Positions 20,881 to 57,800 of a stretch of 64,000 bases of DNA are shown here, one piece after another. The stretch covers positions 8,066,038 through 8,130,037 of the forward strand of contig CM038923.1 of assembly GCA_021904315.1 (NCBI GenBank). Reading direction: 5' to 3'. A program made the translations under genes and the position numbers. The stretch comes from Sphagnum magellanicum (lineage: Eukaryota > Streptophyta > Sphagnopsida > Sphagnales > Sphagnaceae). Every line of letters starts with the position of its first letter. The stretch's first letter is position 1. The notes under the pieces are model-generated. The model ran no database searches and was not told the DNA's origin. It worked only from the letters and a program-made list of their open reading frames with translations.

Positions 20881-20927
20881 AGAACTTGTTTAGGTCTTAG
20901 TGAGTGCGCTAAGTCGTGGAGCTGAAC

Positions 20928-34887: not shown

Positions 34888-35058
34888 ATGGCAAATTCAT
34901 ATGGCCTCAAGGGAAAAGGAGTTGATCTTTCACAAGAGCCACCAAAAAGACAGAGAGATGTTGTGGGGATCCCTGCTGCGATTGAGACACCTTTGGTACC
35001 CGCTGAAAATGCTCCTTCAAGCTCTGGATGGCAGAGCAATGTGCTGCTTCCTTCTTAA
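34888..35058 (+). pseudogene. Small open frame with internal repeat, shortened by frameshift (array copy 2)
   Basis: The ATG at 34888 opens MANSYGLKGKGVDLSQEPPKRQRD, followed by a block with AAIETPLVPAENAPSSSGW. One extra base compared with copy 3 (CTTCCTTCTT against CTTCTTCTT) brings an early stop at 35056. A second copy of the block follows at about 35124-35200, so the DNA carries a direct repeat of about 146 bp. No family recognised. It may be an exon of the hydrolase-NLR or unrelated. Confidence 0.35.
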
Positions 35059-35379
35059 TTTTATGATGAGCTTTCTTGGCATAGTTTTTTCTTGGGTTTT
35101 CCCACGTAAAGATATTGTGCGGATGCCTGCTGCGATTGAGACACCTTTGGTCCCTGCGGAAAATGCTCCTTCAAGCTCTGGATGGCACAGCAATGTGGTG
35201 CTTCTTCTTCATCTTATCATGAGCTTTCTTTGCACAGTTGTTTCTTGAGCTTTTCCAAGTTACATGTTGAAGTTTGATTTTTCTTTGCTTTTTTAAAATT
35301 TTGTTGGGGTGTGACAATTTTCCTTGACCATTACAACCATTGATAGTTTATTGTCCTCACAAAGCATCAGGAGAAGGAG

Positions 35380-35450
35380 GTCTAATTCAGATTTGAACTC
35401 CCAACCAGCAGCTTCGCAACCATTACCTTTAGCCACTAGGGTACTTGAAT
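35380..35450 (-). mobile_element. tRNA-derived SINE head (array copy 2)
   Basis: On the minus strand an A-box-like TAGTGGCTAAAGG (35439-35427) is followed at about normal tRNA spacing by a B-box-like GAGTTCAAATCTG (35400-35388). A cloverleaf is degenerate and no CCA-end acceptor pairing is evident, so it is a SINE promoter head rather than a working tRNA gene. The same sequence sits in array copy 3. The boundaries of the SINE body are not clear. Confidence 0.6.
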
Positions 35451-36201
35451 GTCGTCAATCACGTACAAGCTTCCTTGTCATACATTTTCACTTTGCCTAC
35501 TTTCCAGTTTGTTTGTTTAGATAAAAACAATAAGAAATGGAGTCATCATTATAGCCTCTTACGTTAGGCTGCCAACTCCGTTGCTATATAACAAATAGAA
35601 TTGGTGAAAGGGAAATTTCTCAATTGGCATTAACAAAGAATATATTGAACTTGTAAAGATTGGAACTTTCATTATAGATTTATGAGTTAAGTTCAATGTG
35701 TAGTCTTGATCCAACAACCTAAAGAAAATTATTAAAATGTTCTTGGACATTCTTATTGGGTTTGTGTCCCAATTCCTTAGGAGTTCGAGGCCTTAATGCC
35801 CAAATGTTGGGGAAAATGTCATGAAATACAAATGAACCAAACTAGATGGATGAGTTAATCAACCCAAATTTGAAATAATTCAATTCTTAGCATTAACCTT
35901 TATTGATTGGCTTATGTTCCACCTCCTATGTAACGATATTTACTTATTGAACTTTGTTTTGAAACTTTCAGGTCTATAACACATGTGATTGATCTTCATT
36001 TGTTAGTCATGCAAGATAGATTTGGTATTCTCCAATTCATCTATTATTGTCTTCTTGTTGAACTTAATATTTTCAATTACTTATTGCCTTTATCTAACTA
36101 CTACAATTTGTATAGTGCATTTCTCTAATTTAATGTATAGTCAAATAATTTTCAAGAGGTGTTTGAAGAATTGTGTTAACTTTTTTTCATTTTCTTTGCA
36201 G

Positions 36202-39200
36202 AAATATGCAGTGCATGATTTAAATCCCACTTGCAATTCCAATAATCCAAACTTGACCATCATTTTTTTCCATGGGATTGCTTTTGGCACAAATGATGAG
36301 TGGAAAGAAACATGGACAACATGCCCCACCAACAATAGAGAAGAGTGCGAATGTTGGCCAAAGAAGTGGCTACCCGAAGACTTGAACAATAATGTTCGAA
36401 TTTTATCATTGTCCTATGATTCTAACATTGTGACAAGTGTTCACAATGATGTGACTGGAATTGGCAAAAACCTCATTCAAAGCTTGGTTACAAATTCAAG
36501 GTGTGGCAATCTCCTCTATTTATGGACACAATAATTACTTCCCCTTGTGTACATTAATGATAATTGTTTACATCTTTAGATTTTTTTTAATGTTTTGCTC
36601 AAGTTAATTGTTCATGTGTATTAATATTGTGATACGCACCAACAAGTTTCCATTTATTTGAATTGTTAAATTCATGTAGAAAACCATAAAATGGGGTTTA
36701 ATGCAATTGTTCTTGCTTGAAGATAATAGCAAAGTCTATGTTCATATTATAAGTTCATGGTACAACTAGTTTGGTTTTAGATGGCAATTTTTAATTCGTG
36801 TTTTTTCAAGCTTTATTTTTGGTAATGCAATTGAATTAAATTATATTATATTAATACGTGTGTAGAAAATTTGCATCCATTTCATTGCGAAAACATAATT
36901 GCAAAAAAAAGGCATGTTTTTATTTTTATTTTGATTTCAACGATATTTCCTAGGTAACACAGAAAAGATGAATTGCACCTTAACAAAAGAATGTAAACAC
37001 CTACATACTTGTACATGATAATTATTTTACCAAAACATGGTTGTCACATTTTTTAGGTAGATTAATGGAATTAATAAATGATAAATGACAAGCAAATCAA
37101 TTATGAACTTATGGTTCATGTCATGTGTGAATTGGAAAATTGCCTCAAGTATAACAGGACAAATTTGTACATGTTATTACAATGTTGATAATGGAATTTT
37201 GGTGCATTGTTGAATATTTTGTAGTTATCAATCCCTTTGGGATGGACCAGTGGCATTAGTTGCTTATAGTTTTGGAGGTCTTGTACTCAAAAGCTTGGTG
37301 GTTGAAGCTCATAAACATGTAAATCAAAGGCCAAGAAATGATTTAGATGATGAAGTACACAAATGTTGTAAAACATTTTTGAATAATGTTAAAGGTGTAA
37401 TATTTTATGGTGTACCACATGCTGGTGGTTCCCAATATTTATCAATTTTTTTCACTTGGCAACATCAACAAATCAACACATTGAGCAAGTATGCAACCCA
37501 ATCTGGTTTTTTGAAAAATTTAGAATCTTTCAACTCACAAATGGAGCACCTTTCAACAGATTTTAAAAATGCGCTTCAGGAAGACCTCAACATTTATGCA
37601 TTTGGCGAAGGATTACCACTCCATGAGAATTGGGTAAGATTTTCATTTCACGACATTGAAAGTTATCCAACTAGGTTCATTAGTTGAATATTTTTTGTAT
37701 TGTCAAAACTTGTGTGTGATCATGTACTCAATACTTTTAAATATATTAATGTGGTGAATGGGTCATGTGTTTTATGAACTTTGTTTCATGAATTACTATT
37801 GATGGAAATGAAATTTTATTGATTTCAAACAACAAGAAATAGGTTTAAATTTCCCTTCATCAAATCAATTCCATATAAATATTTGTGAGGGAAATCATAA
37901 CATCATTAAAACATGTAAGATTAATGAGATTTAAAACCAATAACTTATGTGATATATATAATTTGCTTGCCAAAGGGTTGAAAGAAATTATTTTTACACA
38001 AAATATTTCATTCTTTTTCAAACATCAATAGATATTAAATTTCCACCACCATTTGAAATTATTATGTTACTTATAAGTTAAAGCATAAGTGAAGAAACAA
38101 GTCAATGAGTTCCATTAATTTAATCTTTTGCACATGCAGGGAATTTTAGTGCCATTTGCTTCAGCTATTCAGTTGTCAAACAACAACCATTACAAAATTG
38201 AGGATGCTAATCACTTGACAATTTGCAAGCCACCAAACAAAGATCATCCAAGTTATTATTTATTGTTAAAATGTTTGAAAATGTATGGAGGTAAAAACAT
38301 CAAATCTAAATCTTGATTTCATACATGTTCATGTAATTTGACACACCTTAGGTCATAGCACACTTGATGTGTATCGTTATGCAATGTCATATATATTGGT
38401 TATCAAATAAGAAACATAACATATAAATGACCTATATTTTGTGAATTTTGACAGAAAACTATATTGCTTCCACCTTTGCCATGTCATGAGGTGGGGTTGA
38501 TTGACAAAGCAAAAGACATAGACATTTTGTTCCAAAAGGAATCTATTGTTGGTTTGGTTGGAATGGGTGGGATTGGGAAGACCACTTTGTGCAAAAAATT
38601 CTATCATTTGTTCCACAACCAATATGACAAATCTAGTTTTTTGGAGGATGCGAAATCAAAGGACAATATCAATGATGTCATAAAACAACTCCTACATGAT
38701 TTGTGCGGCAAAAGGTTATGCAAGGATGAGAATGTGAATAAAAAAGACCTTGACCAAATTAGGCAATGTATGGAATCCAAGAAAGTGTTTGTTGTGGTGG
38801 ATGATGTTGGTAAGGCGGAGAACCTTACATCCTTGCAATTTCTCATTAGTAAATGTGCAAGGAATACAACTTCTAAAAGCAAAGTACTTGTGAATTGTCG
38901 AAATTGGCAAAATTTGAAATCTCATGTAAGTGAGGATGGAAAAATGGTCATGAAATCCTTGAAGGAAGAGCAAGCAAGGGAACTTTTTATGTTCCATGCA
39001 TTCGGTAATGCAAATCATGTTTTAATAAAAGCTTTCAAAGATATATGTATGAAGATTATAGAAACTTGCGAGGGGCTTCCTTTAAGTCTTAAAGTATTGG
39101 GTTCTTTTTTGTGCGATACCAAAGAATTGGAAATTTGGGAAGATGCATTGAGCAAATTGAAAAGCGGGCAAAGTTTCACCGGGGGCAATGAAAATGAAGA

Positions 39201-41030
39201 GCTTTGGAGTAAATTGAACATTTCTTATGAATACTTGGATAAGGAACATCAAAACATGTTTTTGGATATTGCTTGTTTTTTGGGTGGTTTGAAAATAAGT
39301 ACAATTTGTCGAGCGTGGAATGGAGATTATTTACACCCAAAATCTGGATTACAAAATTTACAACATAGATCTTTAATCCAAAGGGCAAAAGGTGGAATCT
39401 TGTACATCCATGAACAATTACGAGGCATGGGTCAAAATATTGCAATGGAACTTCCAATTATGAATCGCTTTATATGGAAATCAAATAAGTCAAATTTCCT
39501 TTTACAAAAAGATGAAGTTGTCACCTTACTATTTCAATCCTATAATTTTATTTTGATTTATTATAAAAAAAATTTAATGTCTAAAATCAAATGTTTTACC
39601 TTTCAATATTGATTTTATAAATACATGGTCTTCTTAAAAACATTGGCATTAGGATGAAATGTTCTTTTATATTGATAATCCTTTTGTTTTCATTTCATGT
39701 GATAGGTGGTGGAAAATTTAGAAGGCATTTCATTGACAAAATGTGTCAATTTGCTTCCATTGTCCCAAATTGGTTCAAAGGGATTTCACAACCTTAGGTT
39801 GATTGACCTAACAAAAGCCTCACCAACTATTGTGAATATGTGCATCCAAAAGCAAAATTTGAATAATGTTAAGTGGTTGTGCTTCAAAAAATGTAAGATT
39901 CGAAAGTTGCCAAGTAATTTGTTTTATTCTTTCCAATTAAAAGTACTTGATTTGACAGAATGCCTAAGTTTGGAAAAAATACCTTCATGTATTGGCCAAT
40001 TGAATGCACTCCAAGAGCTTGACTTGAATGGGTGTTGCAACTTGAAAAAACTACCTTCATCTATTGGCCAATTGAATGCACTCGAAGAGCTTAATTTGAA
40101 TGGGTGTTCGAAGTTGAAAGAATTACTGACATCTATTGGCCAATTGAATGCACTCCAACAACTTCATTTGAGGCGGTGTTCCAACATGAAAGAATTACCT
40201 TCATCTATTGGCCAATTGAATGCACTCCAAGAGCTTTATTTAAACAACTGTTCCAACTTGAAAGAACTACCTTCATCTATTGGCCAATTGAATGCACTCG
40301 AAAGACTTTATTTAAACAGGTGTTCCAACTTGAAAGAATTACCTTCATGTATTGGCCAATTGAATGCACTCCAAAAGTTTTCTCTATTGTAGTGTTTCAA
40401 GTTGAAAGAACTACCTTCAGCTATTGGCCAATTGAATGCCCTCCAAGAACTTTTATTATACATGTGTTCCAATTTGAAGGAACTACCTTCATCTATTGGC
40501 CAATTGAATGCACTCCAAAAGCTTAATTTAAACATCTGTTCCAACTTGAAAGAACTACCTTCATCTATTGGCCAATTGAATGCACTCCAAAAGTTTAATT
40601 TATCATGGTGGTCTAACTTGAAAGAACTACCTTCATCTATTGGCCAATTGAATGCACTCCAACAGCTTGATTTGAGTGGGTGTTCCAACTTGAAAGAACT
40701 ACCTTCATCTATTAGTCAATTGAATGCACTCCAAAAGCTTTATTTGAGGAGGTGTTTCAACTTGAAAGAATTACCTTCATCTATTGGCCAATTGAATGCA
40801 CTTCAAGAACTTTATTTAAACGGGTGTTCCAACTTGAAAGAACTACCTTCATCTATTGGCCAATTGAATGCACTACAAAAGCTTTCTTTGAGTGGGTGGT
40901 CCAACTTGAAACAACGACCTTCATTTATTGGACAATTGAATGCACTCTAAAAGCTTGATTTGGATGGGTGTTCCAACTTGAAAGAATTACCTTCATTTAT
41001 TGACCAATTCAATTCATTTCAAAATGTTAG
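36202..41030 (+). pseudogene. Hydrolase-NB-ARC-LRR resistance gene, disrupted (array copy 2)
   Basis: Exons: 36202-36500, 37225-37633, 38140-38290, 38455-39516, 39706 to about 41030. The first three encode an alpha/beta-hydrolase of the SERAC1/lipase-like type: IIFFHGIAFG oxyanion loop, AYSFGG nucleophile elbow, GVPHAGG and ANHLTICKP histidine. The fourth is NB-ARC: GMGGIGKTT P-loop, VFVVVDDVG kinase-2, GLPLSLKVLG, FLDIACFLGG. The fifth carries 15 LRRs of 24 residues. Exon 3 is 151 nt here against 153 nt in copy 3: loss of AT before the donor shifts the frame into NB-ARC and leads to a quick stop. Further nonsense codons lie in the LRRs (TAG at 40390, TAA at 40948). A first exon with ATG is not identified. 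Its domain order matches the hydrolase-NLR class described from liverworts. Confidence 0.85.
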
Positions 41031-41034
41031 TTGA

Positions 41035-42433
41035 CAAAGGAAAGGCATACCTGCTCGCTGGGGTATTTTTCAAAACAAGAGAAACCCAGATCTGTACTAA
41101 GCTCATCAATATTGTGGTTATTTTTGTGCCAAATTTCCTTCCCCTTGAAGGTGCGTTGCATGATTTATTCTGTTCAAGATGCAGAATCTAAATGTTCCCT
41201 GGTGAATGGGAACGTTTGCTGGGTGCCTCTGTCATTGTCCAAATCCAAGTAGGTGGTAATATCTGCGCCTGACAAGAAGCAGGTATTTGAACCCTGACTA
41301 CATATCTGAGTTTTTGATGAACAAATATAATGTTTCTACCAGAATAAGGAGCCTGTCTTGCAGTTGTTTGAAGCTGTCCTTATTTGGTGGCCTGTCCAGT
41401 CATCGATTTCTGCATAACAGGATGTAAAACTGCATTTCTAAATAAGGGCATTCTTATTCTAGTAGCCTATACCTGTGAATTTTTGATATGCAGTGACCAG
41501 CTTACCACTACCAAAGGCTTGGAGTTGGGGTCATCTATAGGAGTGGACTATGTGTATTTTGTGTTGATTCACACTATTTTGGTTGTGAATACAACATGGT
41601 GTTGATGTTTGGAAGGTGAAAGTCTCATATATACCACACTGGATTACCTACTTCATATTGTGGGGTACGTTGTTTTTCCCATCCTGGACCTGAGGGAAAT
41701 GCTATGCTTTGCACTACTCAGTTTTTGTTGATTCAAGTCCTTCTATGATATTTTGATGACCATCCTGAAATTTCCCCATTGGAGACGTTTGAAACAAGTA
41801 ATTTGATTTCAACTGGGTTGAGGTTGCAGGTGTAATAGGGTTTGGACTATTAGGTATGCCAAGGTAGGCAAGATTCCACAAGTTAACAAGAGGTGGCTCC
41901 TCTCACCTCTGTAGAAGGAAATGAAAGCCTTGAAAATTTGGCAAGAGAGAGCCAGTCTGCTGACTTTTCACCAGCTTTAGGATCTGAAAACTTTCAAGGG
42001 GAACACCGAGAGCAATCTTTGGAGCATCTGTGCACTGTGTGCTTGGATGCACCGAAGGACAGTTTCTTTGATCCTTGTGGCCATCGATGCACAGGTTACT
42101 CCTGTGGCATGAGATACCTACCCATCATCCAATGGCAACAAATGATTCCTTTTGCAGATGTTCTAGTTGTTTGGTGGTGGGGTTTTCAGCAGCTAGGACA
42201 TGGGTAGTTTTTCCAGCTGCAATTGCCCATGGCTCAGCAGTGCATGTTGTGTACTGCGACCAGAAATAATCTGGACCACTGCTGTAGCACAAGGACAGTT
42301 TTGCTTCTCTATAAGTTTTCTGTTTGGAGCTTGTGGGCTGACCATGAAACCATAATCACTTGAATTGCAGGATACAAAATGGAGACATTGCAAGACATCC
42401 CGTTTGCCAGGAAAATGTGCTTGCTGTCCGTAG
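41035..42433 (+). pseudogene. RING-finger gene remnant, copy 2
   Basis: Homologous to the remnants at 25206 and 53105 and not split by a transposon. Exon-like blocks: 41031-41252 (CSLVNGNVCWVPLSLSKSK, cut by a TAG where the other copies have CAG); about 41500-41600; the RING exon 41893-42207 with CTVCLDAPKDSFFDPCGH; and a last exon 42371-42433 ending CKTSRLPGKCACC and stop. The last exon is exactly 9 bp longer than in copy 1 and stays in frame, which favours past coding selection. The gene is probably dead in this copy because of the nonsense codon. Confidence 0.55.
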
Positions 42434-43133
42434 AATTTATGACTGATAAACCCTTAGAAGCAACGATCTGGCTCTGGAGCAATCTTCCTTGAAAATTGCT
42501 TAAGTATTGTGACTGTAAAGCATCTGAACGAGAAAATAGCTGAGTTGCTCACTAAGGCATGCTTTTTTTCTGTTCTGTCAGTGACAACAAGCGAACCAGG
42601 GGTCATCTTCTGAACTGGACAATGAAAAGGTGTGTCGTTGCAGTGTAGACATTTATCAATTTCTCCTAGCTCATCTAATTATCCTGAAGAATTTTGCAGT
42701 GAATGCTATGAAGAAAAACAATCTTAGACACTGGTGAATGCAACTATGTCTAAGATTGTTGCAACAACTTCTAAATCTGTACAACTTCAGGTTTTGCCAC
42801 CCTAGATAGACAGATTGTTTGTGTAATCTGTGTTGTATTGTGAATCTGAACTTGTGTACTTGGGATTCACCATTAGTGACTTGTGATCTGCAATTTTTAT
42901 GATTGAGGTTTAGAGTTCCAAGGGGCATCAAGAGGAAATATCAACTCTGTGCAGAAATGGAAACATGTTAGAACATGTGGACATTAAGTTCAATGCTGTT
43001 TTGGAGGGTAAATCATAATGGGAGGAGCATTTCTTAAAATGGAACACTCGTCATCCTATAACAGTATGGTGGGCGTGTCATTTCATTTTACAACATGTTC
43101 GCCCCTGTTTTTTTAAATTTTGGATGTGCTTTA

Positions 43134-43230
43134 CAACACCCACGGAGCAGGGGCATAACTGAAATAAGAACACCCATGGCTCCACCTCAGGAGGGTCCTT
43201 ATTTCAGTAATGACCCACTCCTGGGGTGTT
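43134..43230. repeat. 97-bp hairpin (array copy 3)
   Basis: Same arms and loop as 30812-30908, with no visible loss of pairing between the arms. Confidence 0.75.
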
Positions 43231-44572
43231 AACCCTACACATAAAGTTGGAGCAGAATATTTGTAGTGCATCTGGAGGACACATTATCTAGCAGAATTTC
43301 TCATTGCGAGTGGGCATTTCAATTATTTTCCCCTTCATACCTGGTGGGTATCCTGCCATATGTGCTGAGTATCATAAGAAAAGAAATGAAACTTAATTTT
43401 CTGCCAGCGCTGTACACCAGAACGCCCTCAGAGCAAGGTCTTACCCCGAAGAGCACACACTGGCCAAAGCCAGGGCAGGCCTAATTCAGGGAGAATGCCT
43501 CACTTAGATGGCATTACCCCACTCTCTAACTTGTGATATTAAAGTTATTTGTAAAGTCAGGAAAAGACGGTACTGGAACACCCCCTGTTTCACTATTCAC
43601 AGGGCACACCCTCCCATGCTCTGGCCACTCGTCACAAGGGCATGGGACCAAGCATAGTATCTGTATGTGGTATGTTTATGCCTTGGACGAACCAGCATCT
43701 ATATTGGTACCAAGTTACAAAAACACTTTGTGTTTGTTTTTAATTATTAAGAAATGTGGGTGCAATTCATTACTCTCCATTCATTCGACCAATAGTACCA
43801 GTGTGCATGCTGGTTCACCCAAAGTTGTGCGGGCCCACTCTATTCAAGGCCATTTTTCACTCTAATACTACAACCCTTGGCTGTGTATACCAACAAGCTT
43901 AAAAAGCACCTATTGAAAAAGAAACACCTGACCTCCACATCGAATTAGGGCTTGAATTTTTCTTAAAGGATTCTAAACAAGTGTAGGGTAACACACCAAG
44001 GGCTGGGATGTTCCGAAAATAATGGGCCCCTAAGGTGGAAGGCTTCTTATTTTGGGAATGCCCTGGCCCAAAGGCCTTGCACAAGGTAAAAATCAACTAA
44101 TTTTCGTCAAATTTTAAATTAAAAAAAAACTTTCCTGTCATTACCCACCAGGTATTATAGGGACCAGTCTCAATTGACTTAAACTAATGAATTCATTTAA
44201 AATCTAATGAAATCACTTGACAGTCAAAGACACTTTTGTTGTAACTAAAATCATTTTTTAAGCAGCTTCACAAGTGCTCAGAGTATATGGCAATGGAACA
44301 CAATATTTCCCAAAACCAAGATCAGTTTCTTTTCTTTTTTTTCTCAACCCCAGAATAAAACTGACACTGCAAATGATCGGTAACCACTAATAGATACTAG
44401 CAACCCACTTCGACCAACCACCTGACTAAGTCTATCCAACAATCAACAGCAGGTATTGTCCTTTGCTGAGCCTTGGTATTATTCTCAGGGAAAATGTCCA
44501 GGCGAAAGCCATTGTGCTGAGGAAAATTTACCATCCGGGGCCATATACCCAGCACCTGTGGAGCTGCTCTTA

Positions 44573-44858
44573 GGCCCACTTTACACTAGGAGTCGAGGCT
44601 GATGTTCAACTCAAATCATGCATTCCTATTGTGAAAAAGTTGAAATCAGCCCCAACAGCTAATGACACTAGGAGTGATGGCTGAAATAGAAAAAATCTTT
44701 TCAATCTGCCCCAAGTTACTAATAAATGCTGAACTTTATGGTATTGGCCCCAAGGCTGAAGAAAAGGATACCATCAAAATTGGGATGCCAATTTAATTTC
44801 CAACCCTCGAACTTCGCCCCTAGTTTTTTCAACCCTGACTCCCAGTGTAAAGCGGGCC
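44573..44858. mobile_element. MITE-like inverted-repeat element, family 2 (array copy 3)
   Basis: Copy of 32272-32551. Left end GGCCCACTTTACACTAGGAG and inverted right end GGCCCGCTTTACACTGGGAG pair better than in copy 2. Confidence 0.65.
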
Positions 44859-45218
44859 TTAGACTAAATGAGGGTCTCTGAGTTCAATTTTAACATTTCT
44901 TTGATGCGTCTTGGGGTTATTACCGGGGAAAGGGCTCGTTCGAGAAGGTGAATATATTAATGTCGGTGCAGGTTCAGCCTGGCCATTAATTCCAGGTTTC
45001 CCCAATTCCTTCACAAACAACAGACTGGGTTGTGGGCACCATAACACAAATCAAGTCAGAAAACAAAAAATGAGCAAAATGTTACTGGCTTCCCCTAGGT
45101 TAATGCCTCAGATCTCCGATCCAACAGGTGTGCACTTTGCACCAGATGTGAATCATGCTGATTGTGGTTCTCCGCATAACGAGTCAAATGGGTCTTGCAG
45201 TAAAACACCATCAGGCCC

Positions 45219-45537
45219 ACTTTAGACCAGGGTCCAGGGTCTAATTTCCTAGGAACCAATTTGGACTCATGTGAAGCAAATTGAATCCTTCGGTTGGAGT
45301 GTACCTGGGTCCCTAGCCTGATTCTTGGCTCTGCAAATCAAGACCTCTCCTTTTAGCACTGTCTTTCGGTCCGAAACAATTGATTTTCCCTCCAAAAAGG
45401 TGCCATATTAGCATCAATTTGCCACTTTTTCATCTTGAACCCTCACCTAAAGGCCTTGGGACCAATTTAAAAGCTTTCGACCAATAAGATTGCTTGAATT
45501 CATTGGCCCCTGGACCTTGGACCCTCGTTTCACGTCG
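45219..45537 (+). mobile_element. MITE-like inverted-repeat element, family 1 (array copy 3)
   Basis: Copy of 32915-33233. Termini CTTTAGACCAGGGTCCAGGG and, inverted, a GAGGGTCCAAGG end are recognisable. Confidence 0.7.
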
Positions 45538-47185
45538 CCGTTAGTTTCATGACATGTTTTTCCATCATTTATTTAGAGTGCACACATATATACCTCTGAG
45601 CCGGTGTTTTCTTTTTCTTTTTCTTTTTTTCTCAATTTTGCAGTTTGTAAACATTGTCCTTTTTTTTCCATTTTTTGAGCATTTTTCTCTTGAACTCAGA
45701 CTATTAAAATGAATTTTCCCAATTTCTTCAAAAAACATTTATAGCCACAGTGCGAAAAATCACGAAGAAAAATCACTGCTCTATAGAGAATTTCTTTTGT
45801 TTTTCCACTCCCGATTTATTTGCTATGACCATTCATGTAATTTTTCATTTTCCTCCCAGGCTCCTCCAATCATAGCCACTGCCCAGGGCGAACCACCACC
45901 TACACTGGTACACTCACCTTCCTGAGTGAGGCCTCTTGGGTTCAGGTTTAGGGTTTCGGGTTGTAGATTCAGAGACCCTGATTTTGTCTAAGGACGCTAC
46001 ACGTATCTATAATGTTTTGAAGCTACCCCCAAAAACTTTGGGATTTTCACCATGGTTCTAATATAGGCCAGGTTCACCTAACCAAGGCAAATTGACCCCG
46101 CCAAACCCATTTCAATTGCTCATAAATATTCTAGATATTTATAACTTTCATTTCCCTAGACGAAATCAGAGTCCCAAATTCCAAATCTATAATTTTTTGG
46201 GGCCTAATATGGCCATTTGAATGAGTTTTGGAGGTTTTTACCGTGATCCCAATATGGGTGTGAATTCACCCTGGCCGGTTCGCCCAAGGCCCAATTAATC
46301 ATGCATTGCCTGCAACATGAGGTCTGGCAGAACGCTTCAATAATGCACTGAGTGAAATCAGCAAACAGCAGGAAACGTGTGGATCAATATTTTTTGGGTC
46401 AGTTTTCAGATATAGCCCAAGTGGCTATCATCGGTAAGAAGATTTAGTCGGATTTGGCTATGAGCTAAATATGGCAATAGAAAATTTTAAACATCTTTCT
46501 CTTATTTTTGGCTACCGACTGGAAAACATGTATGGAAATCTGACGATTTTTCTTTCACTTTGGTTGGATTTTGGCTATTGAGAATCTCAAAAAGCATTTG
46601 ATTTTAGCACTTTTTCAATTTATGACTTAGTTTTTTTTGGTAAAGGAGAGGTCGGCGTGTGGATGTGAACAAAAGTCATGATGATAAGAATGAGGAGGCC
46701 AGAGGGAAAAAGTAAAGCGTGTTAGACAAGTCTCAAGGTGTCGTTACATATTCCATCCTCAATTATGAGTAGAAAATAGAGACATGTGTTCCAGAAAAGA
46801 AAGTAATGAATTATTCAGTGGCCAAGAAATCGGTAAAGCGCGTATGCTACAGTCTGAAAAGTCACGGGAAAACCCTTCTAGAAGTTTCTGGGGGAGGAGA
46901 AAATGAAGAAGAATAAACATCTGTGAGAATAGTCGAAAAAGGAGTAAGAGAAGAGAGTGGGAATTCCAGGGAGATCGTGAAGAGGAAAGGGGTTGATTTT
47001 TTTGGGGAGATCTAGTGGAAAGATCAACTTAGCTTGCAGGAATCTGGGATGTGAGGGACACCCATCATACCCTGTGTATACTTTTGGGATGGCAAAGGAT
47101 TTGTAGCAGGTTTTCTGAGAGCAAAAGCTTAAGAGAAAAATATTCCTGAGAGCAGTGAGCAAAAGGAATTTCAGTAGTGCAAAAT

Positions 47186-47545
47186 ATGGCAAATTCATAT
47201 GGCCTCAAGGGAAAAGGAGTTGATCTTTCACAAGAGCCACCAAAAAGACAGAGAGATGTTGTGGGGATCCCTGCTGTGATTGAGACACCTTTGGTACCGG
47301 CTGAAAATGCTCCTTCAAGCTCTGGATGGCAGAGCAATGTGCTGCTTCTTCTTAATTTTATGATGAGCTTTCTTGGCATAGTTTTTTCTTGGGTTTTCCC
47401 ACGTAAAGATATTGTGCGGATGCCTGCTGCGATTGAGACACCTTTGGTCCCTGCGGAAAATGCTCCTTCAAGCTCTGGATGGCACAGCAATGTGGTGCTT
47501 CTTCTTCATCTTATCATGAGCTTTCTTTGCACAGTTGTTTCTTGA
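47186..47545 (+). CDS. Small hypothetical protein with a duplicated block, or an upstream exon
   Basis: An ATG at 47186 opens 119 residues: a basic segment (PPKRQRD), then IPAVIETPLVPAENAPSSSGW, a hydrophobic stretch (LLLLNFMMSFLGIVFSWVF), a second AAIETPLVPAENAPSSSGW block, and a second hydrophobic stretch (VVLLLHLIMSFLCTVVS). The protein is thus two copies of a polar-then-hydrophobic module, made by a direct DNA repeat of about 140 bp. I recognise no family. It lies about 950 bp before the first recognised hydrolase exon, so part of it might be an upstream exon of that gene. The matching frame in copy 2 is broken, which argues against strong selection. Confidence 0.3.
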   Translation: MANSYGLKGKGVDLSQEPPKRQRDVVGIPAVIETPLVPAENAPSSSGWQSNVLLLLNFMMSFLGIVFSWVFPRKDIVRMPAAIETPLVPAENAPSSSGWHSNVVLLLHLIMSFLCTVVS

Positions 47546-47677
47546 GCTTTTCCAAGTTACATGTTGAAGTTTGATTTTTCTTTGCTTTTTTAAAATTTTG
47601 TTGGGGTGTGACAATTTTCCTTGACCATTACAACCATTGATAGCTTATTGTCCTCACAAAGCATCAGGAGAAGGAGG

Positions 47678-47748
47678 TCTAGTTCAGATTTGAACTCCCA
47701 ACCAGCAGCTTCGCAACCATAACCTTTAGCCACTAGGGTACTTGAATG
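47678..47748 (-). mobile_element. tRNA-derived SINE head (array copy 3)
   Basis: Same A-box-like and B-box-like pair on the minus strand as 35380-35450, with two substitutions outside the box cores. Confidence 0.6.
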
Positions 47749-48499
47749 TCGTCAATCACGTACAAGCTTCCTTGTCATACATTTTCACTTTGCCTACTTT
47801 CCAGTTTGTTTGTTTAGATAAAAACAATAGGAAATGGAGTCATCATTATAGCCTCTTACATTAGGCTGTCGACTCGGTTGCTATATAAGAAGTAGAATTG
47901 GTGAAAGAGAAATTTCTCAATTGGCATTAACGAAGAATATATTGAACTTGTAAAGATTGGAACTTTCATTATAGATTTATGAGTTAAGTTCAATGTGTAG
48001 TCTTGATCCAACAACCTAAAGAAAATTATTAAAATGTTTTTAGACATTCTTACTGGGTTCATGTCCCGATTCCTTAGGAGTTGGAGGCCTTAGTGGCCCA
48101 AATGTTGGGGAAAATGTCATGAAATACAAATGAACCAAACTAGATGGCTGAGTTAATCAACCCAAACTTGAAAGAATCCAATTCTTAGCAATAACCTTTA
48201 TTGATTGGCATACGTTCCACCTCCTATGTAACAATATTTACTTATTGAACTTTGTTTTGAAACTCTAAGGTCTATGACACATGTGATTGATCTTCATTTG
48301 TTAGTCATGCAAGATAGATTTCGTATTCTCCAATTCATCTATTATTGTCTTCTTGTTGAACTTAATATTTTCAATTACTTATTGCCTTTATCTAACTACA
48401 AAAATTTGTATAGTCCATTTCTCTAATTTAATGTATAGTCAAATAATTGTCAAGAGGTGTTTGAAGAATTGTGTTGACTCTTTTTCGTTTTCTTTGCAG

Positions 48500-51400
48500 A
48501 AATATGTAGTGCATGATTTAAATCCCACTTGCAATTCCAATAATCCAAACTTGACCATCATTTTTTTCCATGGGATTGCTTTTGGCACAAATGATGAATG
48601 GAAAGAAACATGGACAACATGCCCCACCAACAATAGAGAAGAGTGCGTATGTTGGCCAGAGAAGTGGCTACCCGAAGACTTGAACAATAATGTTCGAATT
48701 TTATCATTGTCCTATGATTCTAACATTGTGACAAGTGTTCACAATGATGTGACTGGAATTGGCAAAAACCTGATTCAGAGCTTGGTTATAAATTCAAGGT
48801 GTGGCAATCTCCTCTATTTATGGACACAATAATTACTTCCCTTTGTGTACATTAATGATAATTGTTTATATCTTTAGATTTTTTTAATGTTTTGCTCAAG
48901 TTAATTGTTCATGTGTATTAATATTGTGATACGCACCAACAAGTTTCCATTTATTTGAATTGTTAAATTCATGTAAAAAAACATAAAATGGGGTTTAAAT
49001 GCAACTGTTCTTGTTTGAAGATAATAGCAAAGTCTATGTTCATATTATAAGTTCATGGTACAACTAGTTTGGTTTTAGATGGCAATTTTTAATTCGTGTT
49101 TTTTGAAGCTTTATTTTTGGTAATGCAATTGAATTAAATTAAATTATATTAATACATGTGTAGAAAATTTGCATCCATTTCATTGCAAAAACATAATTGC
49201 AAAAAAAGGGCATATTTTTACTTTTATTTTTATTTCAACGGTATTTCCAAGGTAACATAAAAAAGATGAATTGCACATTAACAAAAGAATGTAAACACCT
49301 ACATACTTGTACATGATAATTATTTTACCAAAACATGGTTACATTTTTTAGGTAGATTGATGGAATTAATAAATGATAAATGACAAGCAAATCAATTATG
49401 AACTTATGGCTCATGTCATGTGTGAATTGGAAAATTGCCCCAAGTATAATAGGATAAATTTGTACATGTTAATACAATTTTGATAATGGAATTTTGGTGC
49501 ATTGTTGAATATTTTGTAGTTATCAATCCCTTTGGGATGGACCAGTGGCATTAGTTGCTTACAGTTTTGGAGGTCTTGTACTCAAAAGCTTGGTGGTTGA
49601 AGCTCATAAACATGTAAATCAAAGGCCAAAAAATGATTTAGATGATCAAGTACACAAATGTTGTAAGACATTTTTGAATAATGTTAAAGGTGTAGTATTT
49701 TATGGTGTACCACATGTTGGTGGTTCCCAATATTTATCAAAGTATTTCACTTGGCAACATCAACAAATCAGCACATTGAACAAGTATGCAACCGAATCTG
49801 GTTTTTTGAAAAATTTAGAATCTTTCAACTCACAAATGGAGCACCTTTCAACGGACTTTAAAAATGCGCTTCAAGAAGACCTCAACATTTATGCATTTGG
49901 CGAAGGATTACCACTCCATGAGAATTGGGTAAGATTTTCATTTCACGACATTGAAAGTTATCCAACTAGGTTCATTAGTTGAATATTTTTTGTATTGTCA
50001 AAACTTGTGTGTGATCATGTACTCAATACTTTTAAATATATTAATGTGGTGAATGGGTCATGTGTTTTATGAACTTTGTTTCATGAATTACTATTGATGG
50101 AAATGAAATTTTATTGATTTCAAACAACAAGAAATAGGTTTAAATTTCCCTTCATCAAATCAATTCCATATAAATATTTGTGAGGAAAATCATAACATCA
50201 TTAAAACATGTAAGATTAATGAGATTAAAAACCAATAACTTTGTGATGTATTTATATAATTTTTTTGCCAAAGGGTTGAAAGAAATTATTTTTACACAAA
50301 ATATTTCATTCTTGTTCAAACATTAATAGTTATTAAGTTTCCACCACCATTTGAAATTATTATGTTACTTATGAGTTAAAGCATAAGTGAACAAACAAGT
50401 CAATGAGTTTCATTAATTTAATCTTTTGCACATGCAGGGAATTTTAGTCCCATTTACCTCAGCTATTCAGTTGTCAAACAACAACAATTACAAAATTGAA
50501 GATGCTAATCACTTGACAATTTGCAAGCCACCAAACAAAGATCATCCAAGTTATTGTTTATTGTTAAAATGTTTGAAAATATGTATGGAGGTAAAAACAT
50601 CAAATCTAAGTCTTGATTTCATATATGTTCATGTAATTTGACACACATTAGGTCATAGCACATTTGATGTGTATTGATATGCAATGTCATATATATTGGT
50701 TATCAAATAAGAAACATAACATATAAATGACCTATATTTTGTGAATTTTGACAGAAAAATATATTGCTTCCACCTTTGCCATGTCATGAGGTGGGGTTGA
50801 TTGACAAAGCAAAAGACATAGACATCTTGTTCCAAAACGAATCTATTGTTGGTTTGGTTGGAATGGGTGGGATTGGGAAGACCACTTTGTGCAAAAAATT
50901 CTATCATTTGTTCCACAACCAATATGACAAATCTAGTTTTTTGGAGGATGTGAAATCAAAGGACAATATCAATGATGTCATAAAACAACTCCTACATGAT
51001 TTGTGTGGCAAAAGGTTATGCAAAGATGAAAATGTGAATCAAAAAGACCTTGACGAAATTAGGCAATGTATGGAATCCAAGAAAGTGTTAGTGGTGGTGG
51101 ATGATGTTGGTAAGGCAGAGAACCTTACATCCTTGCAATTTCTCATTAGTAAAAGTGCAAGGAATGCAACTTCTAAAAGCAAAGTACTTATGAATTGTCG
51201 AAATTGGCAAAATCTGAAATCTCATGTAAGTGAGGATGGAAAAATGGTCATGAAATCTTTGAAAGAAGAGCAAGCAAGGGAACTTTTTATGTTCCATGCA
51301 TTCGGTAATGCAAATCATGTTCCAACAAAAAAATTCGAAGATATATGTATGAAGATTATAGAAACTTGCGAGGGGCTTCCTTTAAGTCTTAGAGTATTGG

Positions 51401-52770
51401 GTTCTTTTTTGTGCAATACCAATGAATTGGAAATCTGGGAAAATGCATTGAACAAATTGAAAAATGGGCAAAGTTTCACCGGGGGCAATGATAATGAAGA
51501 ACTTTGGAGTAAATTGAACATTTCTTATGAATACTTGGATAAGGAACATCAAAACATGTTTTTGGATATTGCTTGTTATTTGGGTGGTTTGAAAATAAGT
51601 ACAATTTGTCGAGCGTGGAGTGGAGATTATTTATACCCAGAATATGGATTAAAAAATTTACAACATAGATCCTTAATCCAAAGGGCAGAAGGTGGAATCT
51701 TGTACATCCATGAACAATTACGAGGCATGGGTCAAAATATTGCAATGGAACTTCCAATTATGAATCGCTTTATATGGAAATCAAATAAGTCAAATTTTCT
51801 TTTACAAAAAGATGAGGTTGTCACCATACTATTTCAATCCTATAATTTTATTTTGATTTCTTATGATTATTTTTGTATGTCCAAAATCAAATGTTTTACC
51901 TTTCAATATTGATTTTATAAATACATGTTCTTCTTAAAAACATTGGCATTAGGATGAAATGTTATTTTATTTTGATAATCCTTTTGTTTTCATTTCATGT
52001 GGTAGGTGGTGGAAAATTTAGAAGGCATTTCATTGACAAAATGTGTCGATTTGCTTCCATTGTCCCAAATTGGCTCAAAGGGATTTCACAACCTTAGGTT
52101 GGTTGACCTAACAGAAGCCTCACCAACTATTGTGAATATGTGCATCCAAAAGCGAAATTTGAATAATGTTAAGTGGTTGTGCTTCAAAAAATGCATGATT
52201 CGAAAGTTGCCAAGTAATTTGTTTTATTGTTTCCAATTAAAAGTACTTGATTTGACAGAATGCCTAAGTTTGGAAAAAATACCTTCATGTATTGGCCAAT
52301 TGAATGCACTCCAAGAGCTTGATTTGAATGGGTGTTGCAACTTGAAAAAATTACCTTCATCTATTGGCCAATTGAATGCACTCCAAGAGCTTAATTTGAT
52401 TGGGTGTTCCAAGTTGAAAGAACTACCTTCATCTATTAGCCAATTGAATGCACTCCAAAAGTTTTATTTATCATGGTGTTACAACTTGAAAGAATTACCT
52501 TCATCTATTGGCGAATTGAATGCACTCCAACATCTCTATTTGAATGGGTGTTTCGACTTGAAAGAACTACCTTCATCTATTGGCCAATTGAGTGCACTCC
52601 AAGAGCTTATTTGTTGGGGTTGTTCCAACTTGAAAGAACTACCTTCATCTATTGGCCAATTGAATGCACTCCAAGTGCTTGCTTGTTGGGGTTGTTCAAA
52701 CTTGAAAGAACTACCTTCATCTATTTGGCAATTGAATGCAACCCTTTCTTGGGGTGGGCGTCTAACTTGA
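48500..52770 (+). CDS. Hydrolase-NB-ARC-LRR resistance protein (array copy 3), 5' exon missing, LRRs truncated
   Basis: Exons 48500-48798, 49520-49928, 50438-50590, 50755-51816 and 52006-52770 join in phase to about 895 residues. Residues about 1-285 are an alpha/beta-hydrolase: IIFFHGIAFG, nucleophile elbow AYSFGG (Ala where Gly is usual), GVPHVGG, and a histidine in ANHLTICKP. Residues about 290-640 are NB-ARC of the TNL-like lineage: GMGGIGKTT, VLVVVDDVG, GLPLSLRVLG, FLDIACYLGG, and IHEQLRGMG where MHD is typical. LRRs of 24 residues (CSNLKELPSSIGQLNALQEL type) follow: six full units, then an indel near 52745 causes a stop. About five more units lie out of frame to 53095. The NB-ARC/LRR donor (GAG then GTTGTC) is weak. 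No Met exists in the first exon, so an upstream exon is needed. Such proteins are presumed cytoplasmic immune receptors. Expression is unknown. Confidence 0.8.
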
Positions 52771-53104
52771 AAGAACTACCTTCATCTATTGGCCAATTGA
52801 ATGCACTTCAACAACTTTCTTTATACTAGTGTTCCAACTTGAAAGAACTACTTTCATCTATTGGTCAATTAAATGCACTTCAAGAGCTTGATTTAGAGGG
52901 GTGTTCTAACTTGAAAGAACTACCTTCATCTATTGACCAATTGAATGCACTCCAAAAGCTTAATTTATCATGGTGTTCAACTTGAAAGAACTACATTTAT
53001 TTATTGACTAATTGAATGCATTCCAAAAGCTTGATTTGAATGTGTGTTCCAACTTGAAAGAACCACCTTCATTTATTGACCAATTGAATTCATTCCAAGA
53101 CGTT
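52771..53104 (+). pseudogene. Out-of-frame LRR units downstream of the copy 3 stop
   Basis: About five more 72-bp LRR units continue after the stop at 52768-52770, in a shifted frame and with further stops and indels (for example TACTAG near 52826). They show that the ancestral gene had at least eleven repeats. Confidence 0.75.
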
Positions 53105-54351
53105 GGTTGACAGAGGAAAGGCATACCTGCTGGTTGGGGTATTTTTCAAAACAAGAGAAACCCAGATCTGTACTAAGTTCATCAATATTGTGGTTATTTT
53201 TGTGCCAAATTTCCTTCCCCTTGAAGGTGCGTTGCATGATTTATTCTGTTCAAGATGTGGAATCTAAATGTTCCCTGGTGAATGGGAACGTTTGCTGGGT
53301 GCCTCTGTCATTGTCCAAATCCAAGCAGGTGGTAATATCTGCGCCTGACAAGAAGCAGGTATTTGAACCCTGACTACATATCTGAGTTTTTTATGAACAA
53401 ATATAATGTTTCCACCAGAATAAGGAACCTGTCTTGCAGTTGTTTGAAGCTTTCCTTATTGGGTGGCCTGTCGAATCATCAATTTCTGCATAACAAGATG
53501 TAAAACTACATTTATGAATAAGGGCATTCTTATTCTAGTAGCCTATACCTGTGAATTTTTGATATGCAGTGACCAGCCTACCACTACCCAAGCCTTGGAG
53601 TTGGGGTCATCTATAGGAGTGGTCTATGTGTATTTTGTGTTGATTCACACTATTGTGGTTGTGAATACAACATGGTGTTGATGTTTGGAAGGTGAAAGTC
53701 TCATATATACCACACTGGATTACCTACTTCATATTGTGGGGTACGTTGTTTTTCCCATCCTGGACCTGAGGGAAATGCTATGCTTTGCACTACTTAGTTT
53801 TTGTTGATTCAAGTCCTTCTATGATATTTTGATGACCGTCCTGAAATTTCCCCATTGGAGACGTTTGAAACAAGTAATTTGATTTCAATTGGGTTGAGGT
53901 TGCAGGTGTAACAGGGTTTTGACTAGAAGGTATGCCAAGGCAGGCATGATTCCACAAGTTAACAAGAGGTGGCTCCTTTCACTTCTGTAGAAGGAAATGA
54001 AAGCCTTGAAAATTTGGTAAGAGAGAGCTAGTCTGTTGACTTTTCATCAGCTTTAGGATCTGAAAACTTTCAAGGGGGACACCGAGAGCAATCTTTGGAG
54101 CATCTGTGCACTGTGTGCTTGGATGCACCTAAGGACAGTTTCTTTGATCCTTGTGGCCATCGATGCACAGGTTACTCATGTGGCATGAGATACCTACCCA
54201 TCATCCAATGGCAAGAAATGATTCCTTTTGCAGATGTTCTAGTTGTTTGGTGGTGGGGTTTTCAGCAGCTAGGACATGGGTAGTTTTTCCAGCTGCAATT
54301 GCCCATGGCTCAGCAGTGCATGCTATGTACTGTGATCAGAAATAATCTGGA
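53105..54351 (+). pseudogene. RING-finger gene remnant, copy 3, cut at its 3' end
   Basis: Homologous to the remnants at 25206 and 41035. Blocks: 53107-53373 (CSLVNGNVCWVPLSLSKSKQ), about 53570-53680, and the RING exon from 53969 to about 54283 with CTVCLDAPKDSFFDPCGH. The 5' part of the RING exon has a TAG (AGAGAGCTAG) where copies 1 and 2 have CAG. Homology stops abruptly at about 54351 (CTGGACCAC), where LRR sequence begins, so the last exon is missing. Confidence 0.6.
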
Positions 54352-54895
54352 CCACCTTCATCTATTGGCCAATTGAATGCACTCCAACATCTTTCTTTGT
54401 GGGGTTGTTCGAACTTGAAAGAACTACCTTCATCTATCGGCCAATTGAATGCACTCCAACATCTTTCTTTGTGGGGTTGTTCGAACTTGAAAGAACTACC
54501 TTCATCTATTGGCCAATTGAATACACTCCAAGAACTTTATTTAAACGAGTGTTGCAACTTGAAGGAACTACCTTCATGTATTGGCCAATTGAATGCACTC
54601 CAAGAGCTTTATTTAAACAAGTGTTCCAACTTGAAAGAACTACCTTCATCTATCGGCCAATTGAATGCACTCTAAAAGTTTTTTTTGAGTGGGTGTTCCA
54701 ACTTGAAAGAACTACCTTCATCTATTGGCCAATTGAATGCACTCTAAAAGCTTTCTTTCAGTGGGTGTTCCAACTTGAAAGAACTACCTTCATCTATTAG
54801 CCAATTGAATGCACTCTAAAAGCTTTCTTTCAATGGGTGTTCCAACTTGAAAGAACTACCTTCATCTATTGACCAATTGAATGCATTCCCAAAGC
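54352..54895 (+). pseudogene. Orphan LRR block fused to the RING remnant (array copy 4)
   Basis: About seven and a half 72-bp LRR units, most of them CSNLKELPSSIGQLNALQ(H/E)L, start in the middle of a unit directly after RING-exon sequence. One open frame runs 54373-54675. Later units carry TAA in place of CAA after NAL (for example near 54672). The block ends at about 54895 in a small CCCAAAGC duplication, beyond which array homology ceases. There is no start, hydrolase or NB-ARC. Confidence 0.8.
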
Positions 54896-57800
54896 TTGAT
54901 TCCCAAAGCCCAAAAAAAGAAAGTATTTTTTCGTCAATAAAAGCATTGTCACTAGTAAAAAAAGACTAAAACGTAACCAAATTATTTGTGATTACATGGG
55001 ACTAATTGTTCTTTACAACTAATATTGGTTTCATTTGTGACAGAAAATCACATCACACATTTTTTGGTGACATTTTATGACTATGTTGCAACTATTTATA
55101 GGTTTTTCATTTTTCTAATGGAATGACTTTTCACATTATTTTCATTTTCAAAGGCTTTTATTTGGCCCATTAGTTGCAAAAGTGACCAAAATTTGGTAAT
55201 TAATATTTATTTATACATTAAGTTATGTATATTGCTAATTTTGCATAGGGTAAATCATGCATTTTATGTTATGGTAACTAACAATTATGTATAATAAGCC
55301 TTATGTATACATTATGTACTCCACATTCATAATGGTATATATATGTATTATTTTTGTGGATTAGTTAGGCATGGTTTAAAAAAGCTATTATTGTACTACG
55401 GTATATGTAAAGGTGGCAATACATCAATCATCCATAGGTGTCTAAAAAACAAGTACAATAATTATCATAGAATTATTGCAATTAAATTAATAACCAAAAA
55501 AATTATAAAAAATTATAAATAATCAAATTATTTAGAACTTAAAATTTATAATTAAAATCCATATTTAATCTTTTTACACTCATCATAATGTAATTTGATT
55601 GATTAATGTAATTGATGATCATCATTATTGTAAAAAATTATATATCTATTGTTTATAATTACTTATTTATAGTGAACAATTATTCTTCCAACATAAAAAT
55701 TCACCCTATTTATTAATTTTTTTACAATGCTAAAATTTTATTTAAAGTTTATATAATATGTAATTGCATTTAGTAATAATATTGAGAATTTATAATTAAA
55801 ATTATAATTTATAATTTTTATGGTGATTTTATTATAATCTGAATAATTAATGTACTTATTGTAATTAAAATAATTCAATTGTAGTAAATTATTGTATGTA
55901 GAAGCTATGATATTTTATTGAAAGTGAATAGTTATTATTACAACATTAATTTTACATTAATTTTAATATTTTACACAGTAATAAAAATTATAAAAATGTA
56001 GTAAATTGATTTTAATTAAAATTAATTACTACAATTATGATAATTTAATGAAAGTTCATGACTATATGTTTGGTGTATATTTTTTGAATTTCATCATTAT
56101 GTGCATACTCTTATTCAAATTGGCAATTGTAATTTGTAAATGTTTTTGTCACATTGATGATTTCACCATATGTTTATGACATTTGAATATAATACAATAT
56201 GTAAAAAATCAAATGTGATGAAAAAATGAGCCGCCCTATCTTGCAACTACCCCACATCCCATCTTTGTGAATAGTGATTTAATTGCAATAATTTATTGAC
56301 AACCTTTTTTGAGCATACCTATCACCTTTGGTGTATAAGAGAATACATACAACTTTGTCCCATTGTGTTGTTCCATTTTGTGACACCATCTTTACTACAA
56401 ATTGGTGCGCAACTTGGGGTTTAAAACTAGATTCCAAGGATGTTCAAGGGTGGGCATGAAAATAAAAGGGAATATGGTACGATCACTTCCGATGGAAACA
56501 CCCAACATTTCATTTTCAAACATGTGAAACATACTTTTGAATACATTTTGTTGTCTACATGTTTATGGTATTTATTTGCATTCATTTGTATGTTTTGTTT
56601 CAAGATCTATGGTTTTCAAGAATCAATTTTCCATTGTTCTCTTTTAATCCTTAATCCTCATGAACATGAATTTGTCTAGTTCATTGAATCTTAATTTCCT
56701 TTTCAATATCATCCTTAATGAATTTCTTTCATAAACATGGTCAAGATCAATTAGTGCACCTTCATAATTTTTGTCACAAGATGTGTCAAACAACTAGTTT
56801 TTTTAGGAACCAAGGTGTGGTTTCAAAAATTTAGAATCCTTAATAAGTCTTAGTACAAGACCTTATAATTTTCTGAAATATAGGAAATTTTGCAAGGAAA
56901 TGAATTAAATCCTTTTGAGCTAGGAATATGAGTCCTTGATTTTGTAGGAACATTTACAACTTAATAGTTTTTAGAAAATTGGATCCATGATTTAGGATCC
57001 AAGAATTCATTAAGACATGCAATCTTGTGTTAGGAATTAGATTCTTAGGTTACAACTCCACTTTTGTTTTATGAAACCCCATCTTGCATATATTGAGCTT
57101 AATTAAGTCGTATATTTCATTTTTCAATCCTATTTCAAAAGTGTGGGTCCTAGACTAATAATATTATGTCTTATATTATAGAAAATTCAGTCATTTTTTA
57201 TCATTGTATTTGTAGGGAAAGTAAGAAACATCATTGGAAATACAATATAAAGTTTTGGCATTAAAGATGTTTCACCATTTGTTTCCACGATTCTACAAGA
57301 CTTGACCAACATCTTGCCAAAACAAAGCACAAAAATTCATGGTAGAAAAGAGAATGCTAGGGTCATGTTTCATGAACTCTTACCACATTCTTCAACAGGT
57401 AAAACATTCATTCCAATTGACAAAAACACAAGAAATCATGACAAGCTCTCCAATGTCACATGTGAATATGCTTCAACAAACTAGTGATAATTCTTGAATG
57501 CTTGCACATGGAACAATGAATGCACCCATTTCAACTATTGAATCATGTGATCATTTACCAAGTCAAACCTAGTTTATTGGCCTAAATGCCCCAACAATGC
57601 ATATATTGGCTATATTTCATCTAAAATTTGGTGTATGATGCATATGTGGAGTTTCTATAATAAAAGATTTCACCCTAAAGTGAAGGTGCCAATATATATC
57701 ACATAGGTGATGGTTATTGTTCCTTTTTGGGAATTTTTGTTTGTAAAAATTATCATCCCTAAGAGGATTTAGCCAAATTTGGTTAGAAACCAAATATGAA

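Follow-up and report, generated by a model that had tools for sequence, protein, structure and literature searches.

A small, decaying tandem cluster of hydrolase-NLR-type genes in Sphagnum magellanicum and the bacterial relatives of their hydrolase domain

We analysed 64,000 nt of the Sphagnum magellanicum genome (assembly GCA_021904315.1, contig CM038923.1, positions 8,066,038-8,130,037 of the forward strand; hereafter the window), and the genes considered here are best explained, with a probability of roughly 0.6, as a small tandem cluster of immune receptor genes of the HNL class. One of them, copy B (Table 1), would encode a nucleotide-binding leucine-rich repeat receptor headed by a hydrolase (a hydrolase-NLR), with an enzymatic, receptor-type mechanism. 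To judge from its domains and introns, phylogeny aside, copy B is a member of a receptor class that is already known as HNL or Hyd-NLR. An original prediction for this DNA had presented it as a noncanonical class of immune receptor; the hydrolase-NLR architecture stands, and the class is not new, HNL having been described in 2012 (PMC3352924; this and the other papers cited, except the review PMC11850516, are represented by partial texts, and statements about them extend to those parts). The tandem copy, the acid residue Glu228, the missing start exon and the decay of the leucine-rich repeats (LRRs) go beyond that prediction.

The hydrolase of copy B occupies the place that TIR has in TNLs. 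In the mechanism that we propose, the NB-ARC and winged-helix domains would form a TNL-like ADP/ATP switch and the LRR would act as the sensor. Without a pathogen product the LRR would hold the receptor inactive; on binding of such a product, NB-ARC would exchange nucleotide and oligomerise, and the hydrolase domains thus clustered would turn active and cleave an ester, probably of a membrane lipid or an acyl group, leading to cell death or a lipid-type signal. We infer activation by oligomerisation, the substrate and the immune role of copy B, and its standing as an intact receptor is uncertain because its LRR array has decayed and its start is missing.

One frame for hydrolase, NB-ARC and LRR

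The five exons that had been predicted to join in phase do so: copy B has GT-AG at all exon borders and, once spliced, a single open frame of 895 residues (including the first Lys) whose sole stop is terminal. With a phase-0 start at 48500, the cumulative exon lengths of 299, 708, 861 and 1923 give intron phases of 2, 0, 0 and 0; the introns measure 721, 509, 164 and 189 bp, and their donors score 4.03, 3.21, 2.78 and -1.07 with an approximate scoring matrix.

The predicted hydrolase-NB-ARC-LRR fusion holds up well. The genomic sequence argues strongly for one fused gene because the gap between the hydrolase and NB-ARC exons is only 164 bp, the splice sites at its two ends are in phase, the NB-ARC exon runs straight into NB-ARC and has no start codon ahead of the domain, and the order hydrolase, NB-ARC, LRR is identical in a second copy, copy A. 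As that near-identical copy sits 12.3 kb upstream, the fusion would not be a chance join. A pair of neighbouring genes, one for a free-standing hydrolase of the SERAC1 kind and the other for an NB-ARC-LRR protein, would account for domains lying in separate exons and for the hydrolase-only product that the copy A frameshift would leave, but this arrangement is very improbable: we rejected it on the short intron and its in-phase sites, and published HNL genes share the order and likewise have a phase-0 intron here (PMC3352924). A scan of 50400-50900 for promoters and terminators with bacterial models, which are uninformative for plant DNA, gave two promoter-like sites against 3.3 in shuffles, and no terminator.

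The profile search that had been proposed for the hydrolase and NB-ARC families placed both above cutoff. In Pfam, the copy B protein matches NB-ARC at 1.3e-32, WHD_ROQ1 at 7.3e-8 and LRR_14 at 2.3e-26, with several LRR families above cutoff, and the DUF676 serine esterase family just above its cutoff of 20.3 bits (21.4 bits with the whole protein, 23.9 bits with the hydrolase part); TIR was not seen among the best 25 of 29 Pfam families. The nearest solved NB-ARC structure is that of the TNL receptor Roq1 (1.2e-34), which is the best match to both the NB-ARC and the winged helix, and the best CNL is MLA13 (8.4e-16). Roq1 itself carries a TIR at its N-terminus, not a hydrolase. By pairwise scores, as distinct from a tree, the nucleotide-binding site (NBS) appears to group with the TNL/PNL/HNL superclass and not with CNL, which bears out the TNL-like NB-ARC of the original prediction. 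The intron before the NBS is in phase 0 and not in phase 2, which separates copy B from TNLs proper.

The hydrolase and its bacterial relatives

Sequence and profile comparisons support assignment of the N-terminal domain to the fold family of SERAC1/DUF676-type alpha/beta-hydrolases. The nucleophile serine and the histidine that had been noted as retained are both present in copy B, and Glu228 is probably the catalytic acid of a triad Ser115-Glu228-His261. All three residues are invariant in five of five aligned sequences, namely copy B and four bacterial relatives at 24-26% identity, as are the motifs HG, WP..WL, GG and HLxICKP. The patterns used in the bacterial scan included WP..W and HLxICKP, which accounts for part of this motif conservation; neither pattern contained Ser115 or Glu228, and Glu228 also lay outside the mask columns kept.

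The four relatives (L001-L004) were found among 46 stretches when bacterial genomes were scanned with a masked alignment; an earlier scan with two uninformative peptides had yielded no relatives among 117 stretches. Aligned by hhalign, the plant hydrolase and its relatives agree over columns 11-278 with a probability of 99.2 (E 8.6e-20), and a hidden Markov model of the four relatives scores copy B at 81.3 bits and reports neither any of 1000 shuffles nor the one ordinary hydrolase tried, E. coli BioH. An AlphaFold2 model of the L002 relative (mean pLDDT 67, pTM 0.71) retrieved esterases, lipases, thioesterases and similar proteins, by description, in the 50 Foldseek rows shown. A search of PDB sequences with the hydrolase gave nothing credible, its two matches having E values of 0.57 and 1.7.

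A role of the hydrolase as an EDS1-like scaffold without catalysis, or as a lipid-binding domain, in place of an enzyme seems to us unlikely. EDS1 is not known to need catalysis, and the GxSxG elbow of copy B has Ala as its first residue (AYSFG), which would suit such a role. EDS1-like or lipid-binding roles have been named as options for this domain (PMC10952240), whereas Ser, Glu and His are invariant with the four bacterial homologues and identical in copies A and B.

The relatives lead towards bacterial defence, a role that is taken here from PADLOC and Pfam family names. The retron type VIII effector model DUF626_VIII is matched by all four (7.9e-157 to 1.4e-20) and by the copy B hydrolase (1.5e-8, profile 15-234 of 474), and BioH, as the one control, matches no PADLOC model; DUF676 is above cutoff in three of the four and below it in L003. 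L001 adjoins a reverse transcriptase that matches RT_VIII at 4.7e-157, while the ABC-3C domain CTD9 occurs in L002 and L004; behind L002 lie an ABC-3C middle component (MC5) and an AAA_23/SMC-type ATPase (SMC_N below cutoff). NB-ARC or LRR was matched in none of the four. For the neighbours, one open reading frame (ORF) each was tested at L001 and L003, of which one matched a defence model, and two at L002, L004 being assessed by reading; four loci are too few for a statement about the family as a whole. At L004, the ABC-3C-type hydrolase gene (5971-7038) stops within CTD9 (profile 1-67 of 113) and adjoins ORFs that we take to be of IS21 type from their appearance.

Alpha/beta-hydrolases are known from prokaryotic conflict systems (PMC7159879), and the comparison suggests that the plant hydrolase and the bacterial proteins share an ancient immune effector hydrolase. 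A wider proposal, which we hold tentatively and as a whole, is that the bryophyte-type NLR hydrolase descends, as TIR does, from an ancient immune effector enzyme shared with the bacterial anti-phage systems retron type VIII and ABC-3C, that when clustered it brings about killing or signalling through hydrolysis of lipid or acyl esters, and that the copy A frameshift sets the domain free as a hydrolase-only protein, in the manner of TIR-only proteins. Among the open-access matches listed, no paper was found that links a plant hydrolase-NLR with retron or ABC-3C hydrolases.

Duplication, constraint and decay of the cluster

Copies A and B belong to a tandem segmental duplication, in which 29502-40808 matches 41812-53100 at 94.8% and 40187-42279 matches 52271-54355. 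Copy A, taken over 36202-41024, is about 95% identical to copy B (94% in the hydrolase), and two fragments accompany the full copies; neither a hydrolase nor an NB-ARC match was found in fragment D. A scan counted 14, 10, 16 and 7 LRR units in A, B, C and D, respectively, the full copies having arrays of near-identical 72-bp units, and copy B has six good 24-residue units from 52270 before the seventh loses the frame. When the 31 units from A, B and D are taken together (the 16 of the decayed fragment C being left out), amino-acid entropy peaks at positions 18, 20, 21 and 16 of the 24 (2.1-2.8 bits, the next being 1.3), all of them exposed beta-strand positions of LxxLxLxx. That the top four should be four of its five x positions has a chance of 5e-4, in a test chosen after the table had been seen; as pair counts are non-independent, this result is descriptive, and the variation looks like that of a diversified binding surface.

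Constraint on the coding sequence was assessed over 2178 coding bases up to 52260, a range that lies outside the LRR repeats and the copy A deletion gap, with flanks and introns (47000-47600 left out) supplying the neutral spectrum. A and B differ by 28 synonymous changes where 19.0 would be expected (P 0.0125), and stops, of which 4.1 would be expected, are absent (P 0.01). The Nei-Gojobori dN/dS comes to 0.42 for the whole, with 0.37 for the hydrolase, 0.41 for the NB-ARC exon and 0.77 for the beginning of the LRR exon, and synonymous divergence, at 0.072, is above that of most introns and flanks. These values give modest support to constraint having acted during at least part of the A/B divergence.

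Several observations weigh against a cluster of working receptors. The selection signal is itself modest (omega about 0.62; P 0.039 for the hydrolase and 0.077 for the NB-ARC exon), the start of the LRR exon is indistinguishable from neutral (P 0.63), and the LRR stops and the copy A deletion fall outside the counted bases. The LRR array of copy B is frameshifted, so that its end at 52770 is a frameshift-made stop inside the array, and that of copy A is stopped early by a TAG at 40390; nothing was found in support of read-through of the LRR stops. Copy A also has a 2-bp deletion in its third exon (38140-38290), between hydrolase and NB-ARC. The MHD position of copy B reads IHE, its last donor (51816) is weak at -1.07, and no convincing phase-0 start exon, that is, an ATG exon ending at a phase-0 donor, was found in 40900-48490. 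As to catalysis, the case is one from residues; in the L002 model, residues 191-221, the His included, have pLDDT below 50, and the Foldseek TM scores by query length are low, at 0.28-0.43 in the rows shown.

With regard to the start, 48500 is a splice acceptor and the listed exons of copy B hold no Met ahead of the hydrolase, and an upstream exon probably exists. The best candidate in 45000-48490 is a short exon with a donor score of 1.72 and two starts (8 or 19 codons), and that in 40900-45000 is a 16-codon ORF with a donor score of 2.85. By score alone, a start exon with a weak donor is compatible with copy B, which itself uses a donor at -1.07. The alternative ATG at 48431 has, in our judgement, a poor context. 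In this region, an ORF at 47159-47542 (+) consists of two 153-bp units with a hydrophobic stretch in each, and it lies in 47000-47600, where the copies diverge less (0.0117) than in any other non-coding stretch measured. As a start exon this ORF is doubtful, its best phase-0 donor scoring 0.02 and lying beyond a copy A frameshift, and its earlier donors scoring -2.0 or less.

The missing start exon, the copy A frameshift and the LRR stops in both copies could also mark the two copies as pseudogenes that belong to an HNL family with working members elsewhere, in which case the fusion would be ancestral and nothing functional would be made here. We regard this as a serious alternative, though less likely than not. 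In its favour, the TAG at 52827, in the copy B remnant, shares local sequence with a stop in the dead fragment C; because that sequence is common to both, the 3' decay may predate the duplication. In addition, exons (divergence 0.024-0.044) have diverged to nearly the same extent as introns (0.025-0.090) and flanking DNA (0.012-0.045). Against it stand the synonymous excess and the lack of stops ahead of the LRR repeats, the open frame of copy B through hydrolase, NB-ARC and six LRR units, and its catalytic and P-loop residues, which are all intact. On balance we favour a receptor cluster that includes a copy B probably under constraint in the past. Copy A, spliced as it is, ends its frame after 297 residues, just past the hydrolase; because the 2-bp deletion shifts the frame, its product would be hydrolase-only, and copy A is probably either a recent pseudogene or the source of such a product. 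Overall, the locus is decaying, and the copies here show a receptor class that duplicates and decays.

Table 1. Features of the hydrolase-NLR cluster in the window. NB-ARC motif names are those that we presume to apply at the copy B positions.
Feature	Position	Strand	Remarks
Fragment C	23622..25773	+	retains just the final intron, the LRR exon and the 3' flank; numerous stops and frameshifts
Tandem segmental duplication	29502..54355	+	unit ~12.3 kb
Copy A	36202..40389	+	exons 36202-36500, 37225-37633, 38140-38290, 38455-39516, 39706-40389
Copy A LRR units past stop	40390..41024	+	same frame until a further stop in the last unit
Candidate alternative start, ATG 48431	48431..48499	+	continuous with the open frame provided that the 48500 acceptor is skipped
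Copy B exon 1, N-terminal part of hydrolase (KYVVHDL...)	48500..48798	+	acceptor TTTGCAG, donor GTGTGG; ends in phase 2
FFHG oxyanion strand	48563-48574	+	copy B exon 1
WPEKWL motif	48653-48670	+	copy B exon 1
Copy B exon 2	49520..49928	+	putative nucleophile Ser115, GVPHVGG strand, probable acid Glu228
Ser115 codon	49563-49565	+	in AYSFGG (49557-49574)
Glu228 codon	49902-49904	+	
Copy B exon 3, end of hydrolase	50438..50590	+	with putative catalytic His261
His261 codon	50510-50512	+	in HLTICKP (50510-50530)
Phase-0 intron, hydrolase exon to NB-ARC exon	50591..50754	+	164 bp; phase from exon lengths
Copy B NB-ARC and winged-helix exon	50755..51816	+	
P-loop	50860-50886	+	copy B NB-ARC exon
Kinase-2	51079-51111	+	copy B NB-ARC exon
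RNBS-B	51178-51204	+	copy B NB-ARC exon
GLPL	51367-51390	+	copy B NB-ARC exon
RNBS-D	51559-51579	+	copy B NB-ARC exon
MHD-equivalent, reads IHE	51703-51732	+	copy B NB-ARC exon
Copy B LRR exon	52006..52770	+	stop TGA 52768-52770
Copy B LRR remnant	52771..53100	+	out of frame, stop-bearing
Fragment D	54354..54897	+	seven LRR units

Other features of the window include a DDE_1 transposase remnant, presumably of pogo type, at 27173-27772 (-), in a 50% G+C island (26-30 kb) that adjoins the start of the duplication, and a RING finger gene fragment (zf-C3HC4_3, 5.2e-7) at 54032-54283 (+), on the border of the duplication unit, with a matching stretch near 41980-42200. A WRC-domain ORF at 4931-5413 (-) and an EVE-domain ORF at 20913-21845 (+) are ordinary plant neighbours; to our knowledge, the WRC domain is plant-specific.

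Comparison with known receptors and bacterial systems

Hydrolase-NLRs are a type of plant NLR whose output chemistry is little known, and they have been recorded in Marchantia, Sphagnum and Ceratodon (PMC10952240); the original prediction, which called their substrate and signalling unresolved, agrees with this literature. The probable triad S115/E228/H261 and the bacterial link make that chemistry more testable. The cluster also gives a view of receptor evolution, with a 12-kb tandem duplication, near-identical LRR units gained and lost, change at exposed positions, and decay.

The HNL class was named from Marchantia by Xue et al. (2012), who held it to be liverwort-specific and described three conserved phase-0 introns, one inside the hydrolase, one separating it from the NBS and one separating the NBS from the LRR (PMC3352924). 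Copy B has phase-0 introns after 49928, 50590 and 51816 (the exact homology of the positions aside), an alpha/beta-hydrolase that immediately precedes the NBS in a single frame, and a C-terminal LRR whose array is truncated by a frameshift. Compared by description, the Marchantia polymorpha genes thus have the same domain order, the same three introns and a TNL-related NBS, whereas copy B has an extra phase-2 intron after 48798, in the hydrolase and beyond the published signature, and probably an upstream exon, and its locus has two full copies, two fragments and arrays of near-identical 72-bp LRR units (PMC3352924). The earlier attribution of hydrolase-NLRs to liverworts is right for Marchantia and too narrow, as they also occur in Sphagnum and Ceratodon (PMC11218826, PMC10952240).

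Most bryophyte Hyd-NLRs are close to bryophyte TIR-NLRs according to Chia et al. (2024), which fits the TNL-like NB-ARC found here in the same domain order, and two Marchantia hydrolase domains gave cell-death-like responses in Nicotiana (PMC11218826). A minor Sphagnum Hyd-NLR subclade lies inside the CC/RPW8 clade and, compared by description, is unlike copy B (PMC11218826). Bryophyte hydrolase-NLRs are mentioned briefly elsewhere (PMC12512272, PMC12856790, PMC12890914), a review states to the contrary that mosses are without canonical NLR genes (PMC11850516), and within one set of flowering plants a DUF676 integrated domain was specific to Aegilops tauschii (PMC12787737).

Outside plants, NLR-related proteins of bacteria and fungi include some with a hydrolase as the N-terminal domain (PMC10952240), and a 2014 paper had already drawn a connection from the SesB-like domains of fungi to SERAC1 and to the hydrolase of bryophytes (PMC4986451). 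Fungal SesB- and SERAC1-like NLRs carry a related lipase-like N-terminal domain, followed by ankyrin, WD40 or TPR repeats, with no LRRs found in the available parts of these accounts, whereas copy B has LRRs (PMC4986451, PMC9815663).

Finally, the small bacterial comparison set places the same domain in retron-VIII and ABC-3C contexts, and, if the chemistry is shared, work on bacterial substrates would inform the plant receptor class. Copy B departs from a retron type VIII effector in that its match is limited to the hydrolase part, which is fused to NB-ARC and LRR. The retron VIII and ABC-3C CTD9 proteins have a homologous hydrolase, over nearly the whole domain and with the same triad residues as copy B, and, unlike copy B, the four relatives matched no NB-ARC or LRR, their partners being a reverse transcriptase in one case and ABC-3C components in another.

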